This document shows, piece after piece, positions 28,785-40,864 of a stretch of DNA of 64,000 bases. The notes under the pieces are model-generated. The model saw only the letters and a list, made by a program, of their open reading frames with translations. It was not told the origin of the DNA and did no database searches. The stretch covers positions 1-64,000 of the forward strand of contig JAVYTR010000003.1 in assembly GCA_038728585.1 (NCBI GenBank). The letters are read 5' to 3'. This DNA is from Conexivisphaerales archaeon. GTDB lineage: Archaea; Thermoproteota; Nitrososphaeria; Conexivisphaerales; DTJL01. Made by a program: the position numbers and the translations under genes. Positions within the stretch are counted from its first letter, which is position 1; every line of letters starts with the position of its first letter.

Positions 28785-29408
28785 ATGCGTATGCCCTATT
28801 CTGATTTGGCAGCAGCTGTACTGGCAGGCGGCAGCAGCTCCAGGATGGGAGAAGACAAAGCATTCCTCAGGTTGAAAGACTCCTTCTTCATAGAGCTGGT
28901 TGTCAAGCAGATGAAAGAGGCTGCCAAATGGATAGTAGCAGTCGTTGGTGAAAAGGACCCAAAAAGGTTCCAGCAGGTTCTGGGTGAGGGGATACAGGTG
29001 ATCCAAGATACGTACAGGCTTGGGAACCCGATGGGTGGAATGCTTACCGCTTTTGAACACCTCTCTCGGGAAAATGAGTATGTCGCTGTGGTTGCATGTG
29101 ACCTGCCGTTCGTCAAGAAGGAGGTGATATGGAGGATATATGATAAAGCTAGGGGTCATGATGCTGCGGTCCCTAAATGGCCGAACGGAAACCTTGAGCC
29201 GCTCTGCGCAGTCTACTCAGCGGAAAAAGGTCTCGAAGTAGGCAAAAGGCTTTTGGAAAGGCGAACCATAGGATGCAAGGAACTGGTCAGGAGCCTGAAA
29301 GATGTAAAATATATTCCGGTCGAAGAACTGAGGGATGTTGACAGCGAGCTGATGTCTTTCAGAAATATCAACACTAAGGAGGATTTTGAGGCAGTCCTGA
29401 AACTGTAA
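28785..29408 (+). CDS. mobA: Molybdenum cofactor guanylyltransferase
   Basis: This 207-aa enzyme joins GMP to molybdopterin to make the bis-MGD cofactor needed by NarG. It has the nucleotidyltransferase start AAAVLAGGSSSRMGEDKAFLRLK, the GNPMGGMLTAFEHL stretch and the metal-binding VAVVACDLPFVKKE, and the middle PKWPNGNLEPLCAVYS is typical of MobA. It faces the mobB-like, moeA and nar operon and is convergent with it, which fits one nitrate reductase maturation locus. Confidence 0.93.
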   Translation: MRMPYSDLAAAVLAGGSSSRMGEDKAFLRLKDSFFIELVVKQMKEAAKWIVAVVGEKDPKRFQQVLGEGIQVIQDTYRLGNPMGGMLTAFEHLSRENEYVAVVACDLPFVKKEVIWRIYDKARGHDAAVPKWPNGNLEPLCAVYSAEKGLEVGKRLLERRTIGCKELVRSLKDVKYIPVEELRDVDSELMSFRNINTKEDFEAVLKL

Positions 29409-29446: not shown

Positions 29447-29956
29447 TCAGTCCTGCGTGATAAGCTGAGCTATCTTGGGAACATCTTTCTTTATGTCATA
29501 TACGGGTATTCCTTTGTAATCTCTGAAGCCCTTGGACGAGAACATGCCTGTGATCACCCTCGCATCTTGATGCAGAGACAGTAGTTCATCCAGCTCCCTT
29601 TCATTCTTAGCACAAACAACAGTCACTAAATCCTTCCTTCCTGCTAATTCCTTGTACAGACCTTCGACAAGAAGGTAATCTAATCCCTTCTCTTCAAAAT
29701 AGGCGAGCAGCTGGTCCAGAGTATTTTCAGTCACCTTTTCATGAATGATCAGCAGGTCGGGAGAAATCAATACTGCAGGGTTTGCGCCTGAGAGGAAATG
29801 TAACCAAGAGTCCTTTTTTGTTATCTCTACGTTTCCCTTTCTTGCATTTTTTATGCTTGCTATTTTCTTCCCTTTGGATGTAAGATATGCTGACAGCGCA
29901 GTGAGAGCTGTAGTCTTTCCGCCGCCCTTGAACCCGGCAAAAAGCACTATCTTCAA
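29447..29956 (-). CDS. MobB-like P-loop protein
   Basis: This 169-aa GTPase-like protein has a P-loop AGFKGGGKTT near residue 8 and the MobB-type ASIKNARKGNVEITKKDSWLHFLSGANPAVLISPD. The region DYLLVEGLYKELAGRKDLVTVV matches the conserved E-G motif. MobB assists MobA in cofactor assembly but is not essential in bacteria. It follows moeA by 3 bases, is the last gene of the nar operon, and converges with mobA. Confidence 0.88.
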   Translation of the reverse strand: MKIVLFAGFKGGGKTTALTALSAYLTSKGKKIASIKNARKGNVEITKKDSWLHFLSGANPAVLISPDLLIIHEKVTENTLDQLLAYFEEKGLDYLLVEGLYKELAGRKDLVTVVCAKNERELDELLSLHQDARVITGMFSSKGFRDYKGIPVYDIKKDVPKIAQLITQD

Positions 29957-29959
29957 CGG

Positions 29960-31213
29960 TCAGTCGCCTTCTATTCGTAACAGCTCCATAGGGCTTAGGA
30001 GCTTTACCTTTACAGAATCTCCTCTCAACAGCCTCTCCTTGGGGGAAAGTATTGTGAAAGAGTTTGCAGTGAGCAAACTTGACATCAGGTTAGAACCCCA
30101 TTCGAGAGGAGTTGCAAAAAAGCTTCCTTTCTTCCTTTTGAGTTTAACAAGGTATGCAGCGGGCAGGTAACGTTCGTTCTCCATTGTTTCAGACAGAGTT
30201 GCTTTCAGCGTTATCGAGCTCTCTATTTTCGGACCCAAGTTAGCATATATGATGCTTGGGATAACAAGAGAGAAGAGAGCAACTGCTGACGAGACTGCAT
30301 GAGCAGGAAGCATCCAGACCAGCTTGCGATGTAACCTTGCAAGTCCAGTAGGTCTCGCCGGGAGAAGCTTTACCCCATGAAATATTATTTGTGCATTCAT
30401 GGATTTCAAGAAGTCGAGCAAAATGTCGTTCAACCCAACAGAACTCCTTCCTATAGTCAGGATGAGATCGTGGCTTGCAACTGCATCTTTCAGGAAAGCG
30501 TTTAGTTCTTCTGTTTCATCTCCAGCAATACCCATAAGATGAGGCTCACATCCTATCTCCTTCAGGCAGTATGAGACGTAGTAAGCATAGTTGTTGTAAG
30601 CCCTGCTGTCATCAGCTTCAGACTTTTTCTTCAGTTCAGTGCCTACAGAGATTACAGCTATCCGAAACCTTCTATTTACCTTTAACTGATTTATACCCTC
30701 GAACAGCAGCAAGCTGACTTTAGCTGCATTGAGAATCTCGCCCTTTCTGACTATTATGGTTCCTTTGCGTATATCTTCGCCCCTCTTCAATACGTTTTTG
30801 AACCTGGGTGGAGGAGACATTAGCTCTATCTCGTCCCCAAGGAATCTGGTGTCTTCAACCTTCACGACAGCATCCGCATTCCTTGGCAGTTGCGAGCCTG
30901 TCGTCACATAGGTTGCAGCATAGTTACCGGATGATATAGCGCTTGAAACCTTTAGGCGTATGCGCTTCTTCCGCTCATGCTCACGCTCGTACAATCCTGC
31001 AACATCCTTTGTGCTCAATGCATAGCCATCCATCATTGCTATGTCGGTCTCTGGGATATCTAACCTGGACCTGATTGTTTCAGCTGCGATTCTTCCCACC
31101 GCTTCTTTTGTATGTATCGTCTCATATTCAGGACTTGGTGTGGATGAGATGGCAAGGCTGAGCGCCTTTTCGTAATCTGTCAGCTTGATGTACTTCGCAA
31201 TGTCTGGCCTCAA
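29960..31213 (-). CDS. moeA: Molybdopterin molybdenumtransferase
   Basis: This 417-aa MoeA inserts molybdate into adenylated molybdopterin. It begins TDYEKALSLAISS, has RLDIPETDIAMMDGYALSTKDV, VVKVEDTRFLG and the GEDIRKGTIIVRKGEIL block, and later EIGCEPHLMGIAGDETEELNAFLKDAV. The molybdate-site loop GRSSVGLNDILLDFL differs from the common GGxSxGxxD. The start overlaps the stop of the channel gene by 4 bases, so it is translationally coupled within the nar operon. Confidence 0.93.
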   Translation of the reverse strand: MRPDIAKYIKLTDYEKALSLAISSTPSPEYETIHTKEAVGRIAAETIRSRLDIPETDIAMMDGYALSTKDVAGLYEREHERKKRIRLKVSSAISSGNYAATYVTTGSQLPRNADAVVKVEDTRFLGDEIELMSPPPRFKNVLKRGEDIRKGTIIVRKGEILNAAKVSLLLFEGINQLKVNRRFRIAVISVGTELKKKSEADDSRAYNNYAYYVSYCLKEIGCEPHLMGIAGDETEELNAFLKDAVASHDLILTIGRSSVGLNDILLDFLKSMNAQIIFHGVKLLPARPTGLARLHRKLVWMLPAHAVSSAVALFSLVIPSIIYANLGPKIESSITLKATLSETMENERYLPAAYLVKLKRKKGSFFATPLEWGSNLMSSLLTANSFTILSPKERLLRGDSVKVKLLSPMELLRIEGD

Positions 31214-32301
31214 CCTGTAACACTCTTCGTGTTCGGTACGTAGCTGGTGGAGAGCTTCTTAACGATTGTGTAAACCAGTCCTGAAATTTCGTAGAACCAA
31301 GCAACTATGGCTATATATACAAAGATATCAGGTATGATGGAAAGCTGGAGCAGACCTGTTGCTTTTATCAGCATGAGGGTGCATACTGTATACATACCCA
31401 TCGGGAAGACTGCACCCCAGAACTGAGGGTCGTAGTTCAGGAATTTCACTCCTCCGAAAGCGTGCCGCCAGACCCCTATGATAAGCAGCCAAGGTACCCA
31501 CCAAGAACCAAAACCCCAGATCATCAGTGTTGTACCTGAAATGAACGTATACAGCTGGTTCATCAGCTCCTGATTGATGGACGAAAGATGCATGTTCTCA
31601 TAGATCAGCAGCAGCGAGCCTGCAAGCGTCGTAATAGCTGTAGCCCCCATGTTGATCCAGTATGGGCCTGTTGCATCCTGAGGGTCGAGCCTGAAGAAGA
31701 GCAGCCTGTAGCTGATAAGTGCTATAAGCACCACGTACATCATCCAGCCGATGAAGTACATTATTATCGCTGCAGTGTAGGTGTACGGATAGTATGGGCT
31801 GAGCCTCGCCCCCAGCACTGAAACTGATTCTGTTGATACCACAGCTACCAGCCAGGTTCCGTTTATACCAGTTTCGAGCGAAGGTTTCTCCTTGCCTATC
31901 ATCAGTGAAGTGAATATTGAATACTGGTATACAAACCAGAGAGCTAACCCAAAGAGCCAGAGGATATATGCGGCTTCAAAATTGTGCATGATCAGAACCA
32001 GCTGCACTGCTAGTGTATTGTTACCAGCAATGACTGTGAAAAACCCCGGTGCCCTTCTGTGATTTTTGAGATCTCCTATGTATGCTGAAGGAAATAGGAG
32101 AAGACGGAGGACTGTGAAGAACCAGATGATGACATAAGCAGCGATGTTGATGTACATCAGAGGTACAGCTAGGTATGGCATGTCGTAAAAGAAGGATGCT
32201 ATCGATACTATCCCGGTAGCCATTACCATCGCGAAATAAGAAGGCATCAGATTCGAAACTTCATATTTCACCTTTGCCCAAACGCTCTCCACAGAGAACA
32301 C
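31210..32301 (-). CDS. SLAC1/TehA/TDT family anion channel or transporter
   Basis: This 363-aa protein has about ten membrane helices. It starts MPSYFAMVMATGIVSIASF, and has a middle GTWLVAVVSTESVSVLGARLSP and a late FWGAVFPMGMYTVCTLML; all are hallmarks of the TDT (Mae1/TehA/SLAC1) family. Plant SLAC members conduct nitrate and chloride, while others move C4-dicarboxylates. It sits between narI (1 base apart) and moeA (4-base overlap) in the operon, where other organisms place NarK or a channel. Nitrate/nitrite transport is therefore a strong but unproven inference. Confidence 0.85.
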   Translation of the reverse strand: MFSVESVWAKVKYEVSNLMPSYFAMVMATGIVSIASFFYDMPYLAVPLMYINIAAYVIIWFFTVLRLLLFPSAYIGDLKNHRRAPGFFTVIAGNNTLAVQLVLIMHNFEAAYILWLFGLALWFVYQYSIFTSLMIGKEKPSLETGINGTWLVAVVSTESVSVLGARLSPYYPYTYTAAIIMYFIGWMMYVVLIALISYRLLFFRLDPQDATGPYWINMGATAITTLAGSLLLIYENMHLSSINQELMNQLYTFISGTTLMIWGFGSWWVPWLLIIGVWRHAFGGVKFLNYDPQFWGAVFPMGMYTVCTLMLIKATGLLQLSIIPDIFVYIAIVAWFYEISGLVYTIVKKLSTSYVPNTKSVTG

Positions 32302-32302
32302 C

Positions 32303-32995
32303 TCAGGCCTTCTTGGAGATGCTCCTGTAGACTATGTTGCTCCTCCAAAGGTAAGGCAACGGAAGGCTGAAGATGTGCACAAGCCTGGTGAACGGAAGGG
32401 CTGCGAAGAAGAGAAGACCGAGAAGGGTATGCAGCTGATAGCTCAGTGGAGCGCCCGCAATTATTGCAACATCAGGCCTGAAAACGAGCAAGCTGCGTAT
32501 GTAGACCCCTATAGTTGAACGGTAGTCGTATTCTCCGACAAAAAGGGAGAAACCTAATGTGTTGAGCAACCCGCTCACCATAACAAAGAGGAGCAGGCCA
32601 AGTGTGAAGTAATCATCGACACCACTTGTCGCCTTGACCCTTCTGTTCACAAGCCTTCTTACAAGAAGTATGATCAAGCCAGTTACTGAGATTACTCCTG
32701 CTAGAGCACCGCCATAAAATGCTATTATATGGTAGCTGCTGAAATTTATTCCAAGGGTTTCGTAAAAGGAGAGAGGTATGATGAGCCCCATTATATGGCC
32801 TATGAAGACGAAGATAAAGGCCCAGTGGAACATAAGGCTACCCCACATCAGCATCCTTTTTTCGAGTATCTGGCTTGATTTCGAGGTCCAGCCCCACGGG
32901 TCTCTGTCGTATCTGAGAACTATGCCTAATATGAAGACGGTCAGTGCAACATAGGGATATATTATCCAGAGAAAAAGCTCAGCTTCGGCAGACAT
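32303..32995 (-). CDS. narI: Respiratory nitrate reductase, gamma subunit (cytochrome b)
   Basis: This 230-aa membrane subunit passes electrons from quinol to NarH through two hemes. It has five hydrophobic helices. The heme ligands are in place: His57 and His67 in FHWAFIFVFIGH, and His189 and His207 in YQLHTLLGLLFFAALPFTRLVH. The length equals that of bacterial NarI. It follows narJ by 2 bases and is followed by the anion channel gene. Confidence 0.96.
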   Translation of the reverse strand: MSAEAELFLWIIYPYVALTVFILGIVLRYDRDPWGWTSKSSQILEKRMLMWGSLMFHWAFIFVFIGHIMGLIIPLSFYETLGINFSSYHIIAFYGGALAGVISVTGLIILLVRRLVNRRVKATSGVDDYFTLGLLLFVMVSGLLNTLGFSLFVGEYDYRSTIGVYIRSLLVFRPDVAIIAGAPLSYQLHTLLGLLFFAALPFTRLVHIFSLPLPYLWRSNIVYRSISKKA

Positions 32996-32997
32996 GA

Positions 32998-33513
32998 TCA
33001 GGCTTCGCCTCCCATTGCACCAACAAGAACTCTGAACAGTTTTGAATACAGGCTATTCACCCTCTCGACGTTATTTGCAAGTTCAGTTATCTGCGTTGAA
33101 TAGCTTCTCAGGGCAAGCTCAGCATCTTCATCCCCAGCTATAGAAAGGAATCGCAGAAATGTGGGTAGATAGTCCGGAAGTTCTTTACCGTTATCCACCA
33201 TACCTGACTTCCTGTAAAGGTTCTTCAGCTTCAGCAGCTCACTTCCCCTCTCCATGCTGACACCAAGGGAAGGATATGACAGATAGAGGCTGCAGTTCTC
33301 GGAGAAGTCAAAGGTTTTCACATAGCTCTCCTGAAGTTCTATCTGGTCCATGTCTGCAAGATGGTCGATAAAATCTAAAAGCTGGACTGCCAGCTGCTCG
33401 GGTAAAGATTCTGCCTCTTTCTTCAGCTCATCTAGGGAAGAAAGAAGCGATGAATTTGGATAGACTAGAAGTCTCGAGCAGATGTAGAAAGTCTTCCTTT
33501 GGGTCTGGTTCAA
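32998..33513 (-). CDS. narJ: Nitrate reductase assembly chaperone
   Basis: This 171-aa helical protein of the TorD/DmsD-NarJ type helps insert the cofactor into NarG and stays with the apo-enzyme. It has ICSRLLVYPNSSLLSSLDEL at the start, LQESYVKTFDFSENCSLYLSYP in the middle and DYLPTFLRFLSIAGDED near the end, all NarJ landmarks. It lies between narH (3 bases) and narI (2 bases), the canonical order. Confidence 0.93.
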   Translation of the reverse strand: MNQTQRKTFYICSRLLVYPNSSLLSSLDELKKEAESLPEQLAVQLLDFIDHLADMDQIELQESYVKTFDFSENCSLYLSYPSLGVSMERGSELLKLKNLYRKSGMVDNGKELPDYLPTFLRFLSIAGDEDAELALRSYSTQITELANNVERVNSLYSKLFRVLVGAMGGEA

Positions 33514-33516
33514 ACC

Positions 33517-35097
33517 TTAAAACCTCCAGTCTGCAATAGTATTTGAGCCTCTGGAAGCAGTACACCCTGAACAGCCTGAACAGCCTGATGATGATGATGA
33601 TGACGCATCTCTGCTACCCTTTCCCTTCTGTGAAGCCAGGTACCTTGCGTATTCCTCCTTTTCATAGAAAGGCAAACCGGCAAGACCCTGGTCTGTGTAG
33701 AGGTCTCTGGCGAGCTCCCTGTGCGAGGTTGGGATTACAAACCTCTCCTCAAACTTGGCGATTGAAAGCAACCTGAAAATCTCCTTTGTCTCCTGCTCTG
33801 TCAGTCCGGCCTCTCCTATTTTGTTCCAGTCTGGCTCTGCACCTATGGTGATGGCTCTCATGTAAATTCTGACCGCAGCGAGCTTCTTCAGTGTAGCCCT
33901 GACAGGTTCTTCGTCACCAGCTGTAAGGAGGTTCGCCAGGTAGAGTATTGGGATTCTCAGCTTATCGATCGATGGGAAGATGTCATCTTCGCTTCCGGTA
34001 GTTTGTAGAACCCTGTCAGCTATCGGACTCAGCGGAGGTATGTACCAGACCATAGGCAGAGTTCTGTATTCCGGATGAATCGGAAGAGCAAGTCTCCACT
34101 TGACTATCAGCTTGTAGACAGGAGAGCGCTTTGCATAATCTATCCACTCCTCAGGTATGCCGTTTTTTATCGCTTCCCTCTTGACATCTTCATCGAACGG
34201 GTCAAGAAAGACTGATAGCTGAGATGAGAGCAGCTCCTTTTCGTCTCTGACAGAGGCAGCCTGATGTACTCTGTCAGCATCGTAGAGCATCACTCCTATG
34301 TATCTGATCCTTCCAACACATGTTTCTGAGCAGATCGTTGGTAATCCAGATTCAATCCTGGGATAGCAGAATGTGCACTTCTCAGCCTTATGAGTCTTCC
34401 AGTTGAAGTATACCTTCTTGTACGGGCAGCCTGAAATACAGAACCTCCATCCCCTGCACGCTTCCTGGTCTACGAGCACTATCCCGTCCTCCTCCCTCTT
34501 GTATATCGCCCCTGAAGGGCAGGATGCGACGCATGAAGGGTTCAGACAGTGCTCGCATATCCTTGGCAGATAGAACATGAATGCATCCTCATATTCGAGT
34601 CTTATCGAATTCTCCAGCCCTTTAAGGTTGATATCATGAGGGGCTGTAACCTTGCTGCCTGCCAGGTCATCCTCCCAGTTCGGCCCCCAGGCTGGCTGAG
34701 CCTCGCTTCCTGTTATAGAAGAGATAGGTCTTGCAACAGGCTGATGAGAACCCTGCGGGGCAGACGTAAGCTGCTCGTAGCTGTAGGTCCATGGGTCATA
34801 GTAGTCGTCGAGAATTGGCAGTACGGGGTTGAAGAATATCTTCAGCAGTCTGGACAGCTTGCCACCCTGTTTCAGCCTGAGCTTTCCATTTCTGAGCTCC
34901 CAGCCTCCCCTGTTCTTTGACTGGTCTTCCCAGCTTCTAGGATAACCCAGTCCAGGCTTTGTCTCTACGTCGTTGAACCAGATGTATTCTGCCCCTGGCC
35001 TGTTCGTCCAAGTATTCTTGCAGGTGACTGAGCAGGTGTGGCAGCCTATGCATTTATCCAGGTTCATGACCATGCATATCTGGGCTTTAACGTTCAA
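33517..35097 (-). CDS. narH: Respiratory nitrate reductase, beta subunit (Fe-S)
   Basis: This 526-aa electron-transfer subunit has four clusters: CIGCHTCSVTCKNTW near the start, CEHCLNPSCVASCPSGAI, CRGWRFCISGCPYKK (a Trp in place of one Cys, giving the 3Fe-4S cluster as in NarH), and CTFCYPRIESGLPTICSETCVG. The C-terminal tail (about residues 497-519) is unusual: a run of serines followed by GCSGCSGC, absent from E. coli NarH. The corresponding DNA is a short direct repeat. It overlaps narG by 4 bases. Confidence 0.97.
   Translation of the reverse strand: MNVKAQICMVMNLDKCIGCHTCSVTCKNTWTNRPGAEYIWFNDVETKPGLGYPRSWEDQSKNRGGWELRNGKLRLKQGGKLSRLLKIFFNPVLPILDDYYDPWTYSYEQLTSAPQGSHQPVARPISSITGSEAQPAWGPNWEDDLAGSKVTAPHDINLKGLENSIRLEYEDAFMFYLPRICEHCLNPSCVASCPSGAIYKREEDGIVLVDQEACRGWRFCISGCPYKKVYFNWKTHKAEKCTFCYPRIESGLPTICSETCVGRIRYIGVMLYDADRVHQAASVRDEKELLSSQLSVFLDPFDEDVKREAIKNGIPEEWIDYAKRSPVYKLIVKWRLALPIHPEYRTLPMVWYIPPLSPIADRVLQTTGSEDDIFPSIDKLRIPILYLANLLTAGDEEPVRATLKKLAAVRIYMRAITIGAEPDWNKIGEAGLTEQETKEIFRLLSIAKFEERFVIPTSHRELARDLYTDQGLAGLPFYEKEEYARYLASQKGKGSRDASSSSSSGCSGCSGCTASRGSNTIADWRF
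33565..33604. repeat. Short tandem repeat in narH 3' end
   Basis: The plus strand reads CCTGAACAG / CCTGAACAG / CCTGATG followed by GATGATGATGATGAC. It encodes the poly-Ser and Gly-Cys-Ser repeats of the NarH tail. Tandem 9-base and 3-base units are prone to slippage, so the tail may vary in length between strains. Confidence 0.6.
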
Positions 35098-38000
35098 CCC
35101 AGCCAGTTCACCTCCCTCATCTTTCTTATGTAGACAAATGTATCCCTCTGATTCCCCACAGGACCCCAGTAGTTGAAACCATAGCTGAACTGTGCATAAC
35201 CGCCTATCATGTGAACAGGCTTTACCCTTATCTGGGTGACGCTGTTGTGTATTCCTCCTCTCTCCTTAGTTATCGATGAGCTGGGTACGTTTACAGTTCT
35301 GTCCTGAGCGTGGTAGGAAAACGCTGAACCCCTCGGTATCCTGTGGCTTACTACAGCTCTTGCTACCATCACTCCGTTCCTGTTGAAGACCTCAACCCAG
35401 TCGTTATCCAATACCCCTATATCCAAAGCATCCTGGTGATTCAGCCAGACAGTTGGACCTCCCCGGAAAAGGTTCAGCATCCTCAAGTTATCAGAGTAGG
35501 TTGTGTGTATAGACCACTTGTTGTGAGGCGTTATCCATCTTGCCTTCAATAACTTCTCATCTTTGGCTGGAGAAGTCTCACCATCGATGAAGGGCTCTGG
35601 CATCAGAGGAGGCCTGTAGGTCGGCAGGCTCTCCCCGAATTCTCTTACGAGCTGATGGTCAAGGTAAAAATGCTGCCTTCCCGTAAGTGTTCTCCATGGC
35701 ACCTTTCTCTCGACGTTGACAGCAAAGGCAGTGTATTGCCTGCCTCCTTTTTCTATCCCGCTCCAGACAGGCGTTGTCAGAACTCTCCTTGGCTGTCTGA
35801 TCAAGTCATCGAACCTGATCCTTACTCCGCTCTCGTCCTCAACAAGGTCCTGCAGACTTTCTCCAGTCTTCTTTTCAAGCGTCTTCCAGCCCTTCATGGC
35901 TATTGAGCCATTTGTTGCTCCTGAAAGGGCCATTATAGCCTCAGCCACCTTTACAGGGTCGCTGATGTCAGGGCAACCAGCGATCTCCTTTTCTCCCAGC
36001 TCTCTCTTCAAAGCCTCGTACTCTTCCGCCACGTTGAAGACGATACCCTTAGCACCGATTCCTGCCTGGGTAAGCAGGGGACCGAGCGAGACCATCTTCC
36101 TGTAGATTGCTGTATAATCCCTTTCGACAACCCTCAGCCTTTGGGTGTTCTTCGCTGGCTGGGGTTTTTCGCCGTTTGTCCACCACTCCTGAATTCTCCC
36201 TCTTGGCTGCGCAATTTCATCAGGCGTGTCGTGCATGAGAGGTATTGCTACAACATCCCTGACAGGTTTTGGCAGGTACTTTGTAGCCATCTGCGAGAAG
36301 ACTCTGGCAATCTCTGTGAAGGTTGCCCAGTCGCTCTTCGACTCCCATACAGGGTCTATTGCTGGGTTGAAAGGATGGATGAACGGGTGAAGGTCGGTTG
36401 TGCTGATGTCATGTTTTTCATACCACGTCGCTGCTGGAAGAACTATGTCTGAGTAGAGGGCTGTTCCGTCCATCCTGAAGTTGATATCGATGAGCAAGTC
36501 CAGCTTGCCCTGGGGTGCATCTCTAACGTTTATCATATCAGGCCTGACTGTCAGCTCCTTACCCATCACCGCATTCTTTGTGCCTAGCAGGTGTTTCAGA
36601 AAGTATTCGTGCCCTTTGCCGCTGGCAGATATCAGGTTTGCTCTCCAGACGAACAGTACTCTGGGGAAGTTGGATGGCTCATCAGGGTCCTCCACAGAGA
36701 ACTTCAGCTTTCCCCCTGCCAAATTCTCTGCAACAAAGTCAACCACCTGCTGCTCATTCTTTGCTCCATGCTCTTCAGCTTCCCTGGCAATGTCTATCGG
36801 GTTTCTGTTGAACTGGGGATAGAACGGCAGCCAGCCAAGTTTTGCTGCAAGAACGTTGTAGTCAGCAAAATGAAGTGAGCCATATCTGCCTGCAAGAGGA
36901 GAGGCTATTCCTTTTGCAGTCTGGTACTCATATCTCCACTGGTCAGTAGCGAAGTAGAAAAATGAAGTACCGTTCTGCAGACGAGGTGGCCTTGACCAGT
37001 CGTTCGCAAAGGCTACTGCAGACCAGCCTTCGAGAGGCCTGACCTTTTCCTGTCCAACGTAGTGGGCCCAGCCTCCTCCATTAACTCCCTGTGAGCCTGT
37101 GAGTAGAACAAGAGAAAGAATAGCCCTGTAGATCTGGTCGTTGTGGTACCAGTGGTTTATGCCTGAGCCCATTATGATCATAGACCTGCCTTTTGTAAGT
37201 TCAGCATTCCTGGCAAATTCTCTAGCTATCTGAATTACATTCTCCCTTTTTACTCCTGTTATAGCTTCCTGCCAGGCTGGTGTGTAGGGCTTTGCGTCAT
37301 CATAATTCGTCGGATAATCACCCTTGAGGCCTCTGGATATGCCTGTCGATGCCAGTAAAAGGTCGAACACAGTTGTGACCAGATACTCTCTGCCATCAGC
37401 CTTCAACGTCTTTGCAGGGACTTCTCTCTTGAGAAGTCTGGATGCAGAACCCTCTTCAAAGTATGGGAAGGCCACTGTGACAACGCTATCATGCTTTCCT
37501 AGAAAAGTGAGAATAGGTTTGATTTCCTTGCCATCGGAAGCGAGCTCAAGGTTCCACTTTCCCTCCTCTCCCCACCTGAAACCTATGCTGCCGTTCGGGA
37601 TCGCTGGCCTTTCACTGACAGTATCGAAGACTGCCGTCTTCCATTCAGGGTTCTGGGTCTTCAGGCCCAGGTCAGATGCTGTAAGAAAGTTTGTAGAGAC
37701 GTAGAAATCCTCTCCTGGAACCTTGTCAAGAATAACAAGGAAAGGAAGGTCTGTGTAGGTTGCAGCATATTCTTCGAAGTATTCGACGTGCCTATCTACG
37801 TAGAACTCTTTCAATATGACATGGCTCATCGCAAGAGCTAATGCTCCGTCAGTTCCAGGCCTGACAGGCAGCCAAACGTCTCCGAATTTTACGTTGTCAG
37901 TATAGTCCGGGCTGACAGCAACTACCTTACTGCCCTTGTACCTAGCCTCAACCATGAAGTGGGCATCAGGAGTTCTTGTTATCGGCAGGTTTGCTCCCCA

Positions 38001-38762
38001 CATGATTATGTAGGAGGAGTTGTACCAGTCAGCGCTTTCAGGAACGTCTGTCTGCTCCCCCCATATCTCAGGCGAAGCTGGTGGAAGGTCGCAGTACCAG
38101 TCATAGAAGCTTATGATACCGCCTCCCAGCAGTGATATGAACCTGGAGCCTGATGCATAGCTGACCATCGACATAGCTGGAATGGGGGTAAATCCAAATA
38201 TCCTGTCTGGACCGAATTTTTGTATTGTATAGATTAACGAAGCAGAGATAAGCCTGTAAAGTTCCTCTGCGTCAGCCCTAACGAAACCTCCAAGGCCTCT
38301 GGCAGATTTGTAAATGCTTGACTTTGATGGGTCTTCAACTATGCTCTTCCATGCCTTGACTTCATCGCCTGCTGATTCCGCCAGAGCTTGCTTCCAGAGT
38401 CTCCACAGAGCTCCTCTAACGTATGGATACTTTATCCTGAGAGGACTATATACATACCAGGAAAAAGATGCTCCTCTGGGGCAGCCTCTCGGTTCATATT
38501 CCGGCATTGAAGGGCCATTGGTAGGGTAATCAGTCTGCTGCGTCTCCCAGGTTATTATGCCATCCTTGACGTATATCTGCCAGCTGCAAGAGCCTGTACA
38601 GTTGACCCCGTGAGTCGACCTGACAACTTTGTCGTGCTGCCACCTTGACCTGTAGGCCTCTTCCCAAAGCCTGTCTCTTGGCATAAGAGAGCTCCATCCT
38701 TCAGAATACTTCTTGCTCCGCCTGAAGAATTGAGGTATCTTGCGGAGCTGAGGATGGGTCAT
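35094..38762 (-). CDS. narG: Respiratory nitrate reductase, alpha subunit (Mo-bisMGD)
   Basis: This 1222-aa catalytic subunit reduces nitrate to nitrite. FS0 cluster ligands His51, Cys55, Cys59 (HGVNCTGSC) and Cys94 are present. The Mo ligand is Asp239 in GEQTDVPESADWYN. The start resembles E. coli NarG (RWQHDKVVRSTHGVNCTGSC), with a short leader that contains FFRRSKK but no Tat RRxFLK motif and no following hydrophobic stretch. Many archaeal Nar enzymes are Tat-exported, so this one is probably cytoplasmic-facing. Its ATG is 64 bases from a TTATAAATA promoter box. Confidence 0.97.
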   Translation of the reverse strand: MTHPQLRKIPQFFRRSKKYSEGWSSLMPRDRLWEEAYRSRWQHDKVVRSTHGVNCTGSCSWQIYVKDGIITWETQQTDYPTNGPSMPEYEPRGCPRGASFSWYVYSPLRIKYPYVRGALWRLWKQALAESAGDEVKAWKSIVEDPSKSSIYKSARGLGGFVRADAEELYRLISASLIYTIQKFGPDRIFGFTPIPAMSMVSYASGSRFISLLGGGIISFYDWYCDLPPASPEIWGEQTDVPESADWYNSSYIIMWGANLPITRTPDAHFMVEARYKGSKVVAVSPDYTDNVKFGDVWLPVRPGTDGALALAMSHVILKEFYVDRHVEYFEEYAATYTDLPFLVILDKVPGEDFYVSTNFLTASDLGLKTQNPEWKTAVFDTVSERPAIPNGSIGFRWGEEGKWNLELASDGKEIKPILTFLGKHDSVVTVAFPYFEEGSASRLLKREVPAKTLKADGREYLVTTVFDLLLASTGISRGLKGDYPTNYDDAKPYTPAWQEAITGVKRENVIQIAREFARNAELTKGRSMIIMGSGINHWYHNDQIYRAILSLVLLTGSQGVNGGGWAHYVGQEKVRPLEGWSAVAFANDWSRPPRLQNGTSFFYFATDQWRYEYQTAKGIASPLAGRYGSLHFADYNVLAAKLGWLPFYPQFNRNPIDIAREAEEHGAKNEQQVVDFVAENLAGGKLKFSVEDPDEPSNFPRVLFVWRANLISASGKGHEYFLKHLLGTKNAVMGKELTVRPDMINVRDAPQGKLDLLIDINFRMDGTALYSDIVLPAATWYEKHDISTTDLHPFIHPFNPAIDPVWESKSDWATFTEIARVFSQMATKYLPKPVRDVVAIPLMHDTPDEIAQPRGRIQEWWTNGEKPQPAKNTQRLRVVERDYTAIYRKMVSLGPLLTQAGIGAKGIVFNVAEEYEALKRELGEKEIAGCPDISDPVKVAEAIMALSGATNGSIAMKGWKTLEKKTGESLQDLVEDESGVRIRFDDLIRQPRRVLTTPVWSGIEKGGRQYTAFAVNVERKVPWRTLTGRQHFYLDHQLVREFGESLPTYRPPLMPEPFIDGETSPAKDEKLLKARWITPHNKWSIHTTYSDNLRMLNLFRGGPTVWLNHQDALDIGVLDNDWVEVFNRNGVMVARAVVSHRIPRGSAFSYHAQDRTVNVPSSSITKERGGIHNSVTQIRVKPVHMIGGYAQFSYGFNYWGPVGNQRDTFVYIRKMREVNWLG

Positions 38763-38865: not shown

Positions 38866-39489
38866 TCATCTTCTGTATCTCTGCTCAAGGTATTCCTGCA
38901 CAATCTTCTTGACTCCTCTTCTAAGAGTCTCAGCAAGAGTGGGTGTAGAAAGTCCGAGCTGCGAAGCCAGCTGTGTCACCGTGGTCTTTCTGTCAACGTC
39001 AAACAGGCCATTCTGATAAGCAAGAAAGATTGCTTTGAACTGTTTCGGAGTCAGCACGCCGTTCTCAAAATATTTTGTCTTTGTCAGAACATGGACAGGT
39101 ATTCCCTTATTCTCCATTCTCATCACAAACTCCTTTATCGCAGAGGGGTTCAGAGCTAGAACATGGTATGTCATCTCAAAGTCAGAGAATTGCTCAGCAT
39201 CGATGACTATCAGGTCTGACCTGGCAAGCTCCCTGCAGGTTGTGCAGCTCTTGCTTTCTACTAACAGCTTCTTCTGTCCGAGCATCGCAACCTTCACCGC
39301 ATTTCTTCTGAGCCGGTTCAAAACCTGTTCAGGCGGAGCCCTTACCTCCAGCTTGTGGACGCTTGTCTTTGTCCCAACTTTGAGAAAGAAGAGAGAAGCT
39401 CTGCCCTTCGAGAGAGATGCAACTTCAGATACTTTACATTTTCTTTTCCTGACCCTGATGAAGGCCTCTACAGGGCTAGATGGCTTCAA
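38866..39489 (-). CDS. Bat-type (HTH_10) transcriptional regulator
   Basis: This 207-aa protein has a C-terminal HTH of the bacterioopsin-activator type: VLTPKQFKAIFLAYQNGLFDVDRKTTVTQLASQLGLSTPTLAETLRRGVKKIVQEYL. The N-terminal half contains a CTTC pair (Cys102, Cys105) that could bind metal or act as a redox switch. It lies immediately upstream of narG on the same strand with narG's own promoter between, so it is the obvious candidate nar regulator. This is an inference from position. Confidence 0.85.
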   Translation of the reverse strand: MKPSSPVEAFIRVRKRKCKVSEVASLSKGRASLFFLKVGTKTSVHKLEVRAPPEQVLNRLRRNAVKVAMLGQKKLLVESKSCTTCRELARSDLIVIDAEQFSDFEMTYHVLALNPSAIKEFVMRMENKGIPVHVLTKTKYFENGVLTPKQFKAIFLAYQNGLFDVDRKTTVTQLASQLGLSTPTLAETLRRGVKKIVQEYLEQRYRR

Positions 39490-39628: not shown

Positions 39629-40864
39629 CTACAACCTGAGCAGTGCAGATACAGCTGTCAGCAATCCTGTGAAGACTACTGCGATGACGGAGACCCAGTA
39701 AAAAAGCTTCCAGTAACCTTTCAGATACCGCTTACCCATTATCCTCTGATTCGATGATATGAGACCCAGCAAAACTGCAGGCACAATTGTCACAAAGACG
39801 AAGACTACCATAAGGTTAACCATCAGCTGGACCATATTTGAAAAGATTAAGGGTACGAGCATTGCAGGAAGGGTCTCCAGTATGTAAACCATGTAGAATT
39901 TCCTTGCCAGAACGAACCTATCCCCTATTCTCCTTCTCCATCCCAGTGCTTCTGCTATCCCCCAGGTGCTGGCCAGTGATATCACAACCAGAGCCAGAAA
40001 CGAGGCTGACCCAAGACCGATTGCGTAAAGAATGTACGAATAGGGACCAGCCAAAGGAACTAGAGCTTCAGCCAACTTCTTCGATGACAGAAGGTTTACT
40101 GGGCCTATAGATGCTGAAACTATTACGATGCTTATCATCAAGACCTCGCTTGCGATCGCTCCGAACAGAGTTTCAAACCTCTCAAAGGAATAGTGGTCTC
40201 TTTTCAGACCCTTCTGGACCACAGCTCCAGCCTGATAGAAGAGCATCCAGGGCATTATGACAGCTCCTACATTCGCTGCAATCATGTAGCCGAAGGAGGG
40301 GTCTGCGTATGGCTGGATGGGGTTCAGTCCTACATTCAGCAGCTTCTGCAAGTCCACTCCTACCAGAAAGGCGTCAACTACATACGAAGATAATAGCACT
40401 GCGGAGACCAAGAGAAGGATTCTTTCTGTTCTCTTATAGCTACCAGTAAAAACGAGCAAAGCATGAATGAAGAAGACTAGGGGTAGAGAAATATAAGGAG
40501 CTATCCCGAACACCTCCATTGCCACGGCCGCTCCTGCATATTCAGCGGAATAAGAGAGAAAATCAGTCAGGAACATCGGTAGAGAGGCGAGAATGGCCAT
40601 TCTTCTAGAATAGTACTCTCTGATTATCTCTGCCAGTCCTTTCCCCGTGGAAACGGCAACCCTACCTGCAGCCTCCTGTATGAAGAACAGAGGAACAATC
40701 AGTATTATCAGTATGAAGATCATGTGGTAGCCATATGCAGCCCCGCTTTCTCCTGCGGTTACTATGCTGGGGGCATCCACATCAGCCATCATCACAATCC
40801 AAGCCGGACCTATGATCGAAAGAAAGGAAAGAATGGTTGCCTTTCTCCCTGAAAGCTGGTTCAT
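39629..40864 (-). CDS. Nramp-like divalent metal transporter (variant)
   Basis: This 411-aa membrane protein of the Nramp fold has about 11 helices. Helix 1 reads SIIGPAWIVMMADVDAPSIVTAGESGAAYGY, where canonical Nramp has DPGN; the motif here is DAPS (Asp30, Pro32, Ser33). Helix 6 has MPWMLFYQAG instead of MPHN. The key Asp and the Met are kept, but the Asn and His are changed, as in Nramp-related proteins with altered metal preference. Substrate (Mn, Fe, Mg or other) is uncertain. The gene lies in the nar neighbourhood. Confidence 0.8.
   Translation of the reverse strand: MNQLSGRKATILSFLSIIGPAWIVMMADVDAPSIVTAGESGAAYGYHMIFILIILIVPLFFIQEAAGRVAVSTGKGLAEIIREYYSRRMAILASLPMFLTDFLSYSAEYAGAAVAMEVFGIAPYISLPLVFFIHALLVFTGSYKRTERILLLVSAVLLSSYVVDAFLVGVDLQKLLNVGLNPIQPYADPSFGYMIAANVGAVIMPWMLFYQAGAVVQKGLKRDHYSFERFETLFGAIASEVLMISIVIVSASIGPVNLLSSKKLAEALVPLAGPYSYILYAIGLGSASFLALVVISLASTWGIAEALGWRRRIGDRFVLARKFYMVYILETLPAMLVPLIFSNMVQLMVNLMVVFVFVTIVPAVLLGLISSNQRIMGKRYLKGYWKLFYWVSVIAVVFTGLLTAVSALLRL

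Follow-up and report, generated by a model that had tools for sequence, protein, structure and literature searches.

Cytoplasmic nitrate reductases require that nitrate be imported and nitrite removed, as is established for NarGHI and NarK, and in the textbook organisms both movements are handled by NarK, a carrier of the NNP family within the MFS. The SLAC1/TDT family has been encountered in other settings. Its members Mae1 and Ssu1 are known for other anions (C4-dicarboxylate, formate or sulfite), and proton coupling occurs within the family, as in Mae1. In plants, SLAC1 and SLAH3 conduct nitrate. The TDT-family proteins of Nitrobacter have been named nitrite/nitrate transporters, an assignment made by annotation; they are found alongside NarK in these nitrite oxidisers, where they serve a cytoplasmic enzyme of the Nar/NXR type (PMC12815253). 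Finally, a survey of the Nitrososphaeria reported a cytoplasmic-type nar operon in the MAG DRTY1_bin.15 and inferred its transfer from bacteria; the word "transporter" is absent from its main text and the TDT gene is not discussed (PMC10833072). Our literature search, to which subscription papers were mostly inaccessible, returned no paper on SLAC1/TDT proteins in the NarK position of nar operons or in archaea, and a lead to Thermus PS18 proved false, being a word match only.

Here we describe a nar operon from a Conexivisphaerales archaeon that harbors a SLAC1/TDT gene in this position. The window, the whole stretch of DNA analysed, comprises 64,000 nucleotides (contig JAVYTR010000003.1, positions 1 to 64,000). 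Its relevant features, in the order in which they are read on the minus strand and followed by the convergent mobA-like gene, are:

38866-39489, minus strand: HTH_10 regulator 5' of narG, candidate nar regulator (PF04967, 55.1 bits)
35094-38762, minus strand: narG, catalytic subunit, cytoplasmic type lacking a twin-arginine signal (TIGR01580, 1816 bits)
33517-35097, minus strand: narH, iron-sulfur subunit (TIGR01660, 789.5 bits)
32998-33513, minus strand: narJ, assembly chaperone (TIGR00684, 104.4 bits)
32303-32995, minus strand: narI, membrane cytochrome b subunit with its four haem-ligand histidines retained (TIGR00351, 205.6 bits)
31210-32301, minus strand: SLAC1/TDT-family membrane protein of 363 amino acids with a GTG start, candidate nitrate/nitrite channel or exchanger (PF03595)
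29960-31213, minus strand: moeA, molybdenum cofactor insertion (PF03453 and PF00994)
29447-29956, minus strand: putative mobB-like open reading frame, the final gene in the run, assigned by reading its sequence, which has the P-loop motif GFKGGGKTT
28785-29408, plus strand: mobA-like nucleotidyltransferase (PF12804, 108.8 bits)

The open reading frames place the TDT gene one base (32302) after narI and give it an overlap of 4 bases (31210-31213) with moeA, in agreement with the first-pass annotation, which had also described the nar operon as lacking NarK; no narK is found among its genes. A promoter and terminator scan gave signals that were not clearly above those of shuffled sequence. We consider it likely that the TDT gene encodes an anion channel or exchanger of the SLAC1/TehA fold that serves the adjoining cytoplasmic NarGHI instead of NarK.

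All four genes of the nitrate reductase, narG, narH, narJ and narI, score above their curated NCBIfam cut-offs, and NarG shares 53% identity with its E. coli counterpart across its length. The molybdenum-ligand aspartate and the FS0 histidine are kept in NarG, as are the tested cysteines in NarH and the four haem histidines in NarI, and no twin-arginine signal is evident on reading the N-terminus of NarG. These features together mark NarGHI as cytoplasmic (the bacterial nNar type), an orientation for which nitrate has to be imported and nitrite exported. The operon is of the same cytoplasmic type as that reported for the Nitrososphaeria MAG (PMC10833072), and in DRTY1_bin.15, locus L019 of our survey, a TDT gene likewise follows narI.

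The window's genome (1.93 Mb, 99.6% complete) offers no recognisable NarK for these tasks. A search for narK elsewhere, which the first-pass annotation had proposed, returned as the best genome-wide MFS match to the NarK profile TIGR00886 a protein of only 55 bits, for which a family of sugar-phosphate transporters is the better fit; the next-best match is an EmrB-type drug exporter. Members of the FNT/NirC family were also absent from a genome-wide search. The first-pass annotation had spoken of a denitrification step, and this is not borne out: in the genome search the best match to the copper nitrite reductase NirK reaches 19.7 bits where the cut-off is 296, and neither cytochrome cd1 nor a sirohaem nitrite/sulfite reductase is found. 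Nitrite is therefore probably the end product of nitrate respiration here, and would need to be exported.

The protein is assigned to its family by the PF03595 SLAC1 profile, at 146.3 bits against a cut-off of 27.9 and over positions 1-326 of 331, which bears out the family named at first reading. With 79.6 bits against TIGR00816 (tdt), far below the cut-off of 237.25, it falls outside that subfamily and is thus a divergent member. SLAC1 and tdt are its only Pfam and NCBIfam matches, TIGR00886 is not among them, and the genome encodes no second PF03595 protein. The AlphaFold model (pLDDT 91.7, pTM 0.91) predicts the SLAC1/TehA helical fold: the PDB structure matches with E < 0.001, 24 in number, consist of TehA and SLAC1 entries and of complexes whose titles indicate that they contain SLAC1, at 11-18% identity and with a TM-score of up to 0.81, on TehA. 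No relative came out of PDB sequence searches, whether the TDT profile used was narrow or broad, and when profiles were compared with E. coli TehA the alignment covered just the N-terminal half and had a low probability. By alignment, F298 is the counterpart of the gate phenylalanine F262 of E. coli TehA, and it is invariant across 49 relatives, plasmid rows being left out of that alignment. F298 is followed by P299, as F450 is followed by P451 in SLAC1, a register taken from the F-P motif. The protein thus shares its Pfam family, fold and gate phenylalanine motif with plant SLAC1 and SLAH3 and Haemophilus TehA; in contrast to them, it is encoded in a respiratory operon and lacks the phosphorylation-regulated tails of the plant proteins. 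By analogy with SLAC1 and SLAH3, passage of nitrate or nitrite through it is plausible. The protein is unrelated to NarK in fold and family, and by homology it is of the channel type rather than a rocker-switch carrier.

The same position is conserved among relatives. Within a sample of 300 Nitrososphaeria genomes, a true narG is present in five, and in four of these (G000, G001, G002 and G015) a TDT gene lies immediately 3' of narI. PF03595 is found in 9 of the 300, and 4 of those 9 are among the 5 with narG. The fifth narG-positive genome, G045, has no TDT match, and NarK occupies the same position after narI. The four genomes are kin and hence do not represent four independent events. The TDT of G001 is 33% identical to that of the window, against 73% for narI and 72% for narG, and sits on a very long branch of the tree; either another TDT was recruited there or the gene diverged rapidly, and both ways a TDT was kept. 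G015 is an exception to exclusivity, as it carries a NarK-like MFS protein (116 bits) 3.1 kb away from its TDT. The proposal that the gene replaces NarK remains, apart from denitrification, the best reading, given the conserved position after narI, its occupation by NarK in the TDT-less G045, and the lack of NarK and NirC in the window's genome. Members of the SLAC1 family are anion channels of broad selectivity, and the protein might instead provide a general chloride or bicarbonate leak for charge or volume balance when Nar shifts ion fluxes. We hold this to be very unlikely, since nitrate and nitrite would still need another route, where no NarK, NirC or other route was found, and since the gene sits in the place of NarK.

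The arrangement extends well beyond these archaea. The neighbourhoods of the best 80 TDT relatives in GTDB genomes, selected by sequence alone, were surveyed as the first-pass annotation had suggested. Relatives with narG, narH or narI within 10 kb flanks were counted as near nar, and those on the same strand and at most 300 bases after narI as being in the slot. By these definitions 35 of the 80 are near nar genes and 16 are in the slot directly downstream of narI, and the slot loci span Nitrososphaeria, Thermoplasmata, Deltaproteobacteria and many Chloroflexota. The arrangement of the window is thereby found in three relatives and 15 further loci, mostly from other phyla, so the linkage of narI and TDT is more than chance. 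The slot state clusters on the tree of TDT relatives, but supported branches require it to have changed four times or more. In one Thermoplasmata locus (L020) the narI and TDT frames overlap, and in three slot loci (L030, L031 and L069) an FNT/NirC gene follows the TDT, that of L031 being confirmed as NirC. The slot TDT of a Deltaproteobacteria MAG (L041:9929-11041) is interrupted in the assembly by an in-frame stop, for which decay or sequencing error are possible causes. No established role of the family in nar operons had been known to the first-pass annotation; that statement gives way to a nar linkage that is widespread in public genomes and to the TDT transporters named in Nitrobacter (PMC12815253).

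Recurrence of the same arrangement in unrelated archaea and bacteria suggests that the family probably takes nitrate in or lets nitrite out during nitrate respiration. The protein may alternatively carry another anion, such as C4-dicarboxylate, formate or sulfite, importing an electron donor or clearing a by-product and merely travelling with nar. This would accord with relatives that adjoin other enzymes in the absence of nar, in haloarchaea, in a genome of the same phylum and in Bacteroidota. We regard it as unlikely, as the gene alternates with NarK in a single slot, nar-linked TDT genes recur in several phyla, and no donor-specific dehydrogenase recurs in the slot loci.

Whether TDT and NarK exclude each other was followed by genome-wide searches, with a protein called NarK-like by a break in the best scores, which were either about 80 or lower or at least 108. 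The curated NarK cut-off of 311.7 bits did not serve to decide presence or absence, because the G045 protein that sits in the operon slot is a NarK yet reaches no more than 168. A NarK-like protein is present in 1 of 19 slot genomes versus 9 of 14 genomes in which the TDT is only nearby, counts in which gaps in MAGs may hide NarK. Fisher's test gives p 0.0004 with related genomes counted as independent, and relatedness-aware pairing leaves at most one informative pair; owing to shared ancestry the exclusion test is weak. Nine nar-TDT genomes besides G015 also have NarK-like proteins, which counts against replacement of NarK by TDT, as does the occurrence of the subfamily beside other enzymes without nar.

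If TDT does serve NarGHI, we infer its substrate, direction and coupling mode as follows. NarGHI would reduce nitrate to nitrite inside the cell. Nitrite would leave through the channel, the genome having no nitrite reductase of the families searched, and nitrate would enter through it in exchange, coupled to protons, or passively at a permissive membrane potential. Were the protein a pure channel, nitrite would run downhill out of the cell and nitrate uptake would be opposed at an inside-negative potential, so that exchange, proton coupling, or a low or reversed potential would be needed. Acidophiles may have an inside-positive membrane potential, which would favour passive nitrate entry. Enrichment in acidic springs is reported for the Conexivisphaerales (PMC11094006). 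It is conceivable, though quite improbable, that a SLAC1-fold channel gives acidophilic archaea a passive, potential-driven uptake of nitrate for respiration, with nitrite passing through the same pore; if true, NarK, a carrier, would have an alternative based on a channel, and the family to which the plant stomatal nitrate channel belongs would have a part in respiration. The Chloroflexota presumably live mostly in near-neutral waters, and the arrangement is also found in them, so acidity is not the whole explanation.

In both archaea and bacteria, many nar operons seemingly devoid of a transporter appear to hold a SLAC1-type protein, at present labelled "tellurite resistance/C4-dicarboxylate transporter". 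Were a function assigned to it, this label would be corrected in Chloroflexota, Thermoplasmata, Nitrososphaeria and others, and the prokaryotic kin of plant nitrate/chloride channels would gain a physiological role that can be tested. Compared with Nitrobacter, the family and the proposed ions are the same, but here the gene takes the NarK slot in a nitrate-reducing archaeon that has no NarK.

The downstream neighbour raises a further possibility. The TDT gene directly precedes moeA in the window, and members of the subfamily recur beside differing molybdoenzymes; the protein could be an entry channel for molybdate or tungstate, supplying cofactor to the neighbouring molybdoenzyme. We find this barely credible, since the genome already encodes a substrate-binding protein that matches PF13531 (71 bits), a family that includes the ModA/WtpA types, and since moeA lies 3' of TDT in the archaeal relatives but no moeA match lies beside TDT in the Chloroflexota slot loci.

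Outside nar, the neighbours of TDT are mostly molybdoenzymes, several of them acting on oxyanions, and the substrate may differ between branches of the family. In Acidobacteriota, Gemmatimonadota and others, TDT ends a cluster with a NasC-like molybdoenzyme, a NarI-like cytochrome b, an Fe-S protein and a Rieske protein (L060:4919-11014, L085:4950-11014, L072, L026, L064 and L090; 851 bits to NasC in L085). This cluster is possibly an undescribed membrane-bound oxidoreductase for nitrate or another oxyanion. On haloarchaeal plasmids (L100:6316-9017 and L101:6316-9017), the gene immediately ahead of TDT encodes cytochrome b561 fused to a molybdenum domain of the MsrP/SorA type. The complete genome G360, of the same phylum as the window, has a TDT relative after what appears to be a xanthine-dehydrogenase-type large subunit (L149:1456-3911). 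Nine Bacteroidota loci (L025, L029, L032 and six more) share a conserved cassette in which a response regulator and a histidine kinase are joined by TDT and by a small membrane protein; the latter has no Pfam or NCBIfam match, and in three loci an FNT/NirC gene comes next.

Upstream of the nar operon, and on the same strand, an Nramp-type transporter gene (39629-40864) precedes the HTH_10 regulator; it scores 193 bits to Pfam, and its 79 bits against 430 for MntH leave it far under the MntH cut-offs. The HTH_10 regulator, of the bacterio-opsin activator type, is kept at the same place upstream of narG in G001 and G002, and L133:15248-15847 is listed together with it. A protein that by appearance resembles it also adjoins the nar operon of G045, and the HTH_10 protein is a candidate archaeal nar regulator.
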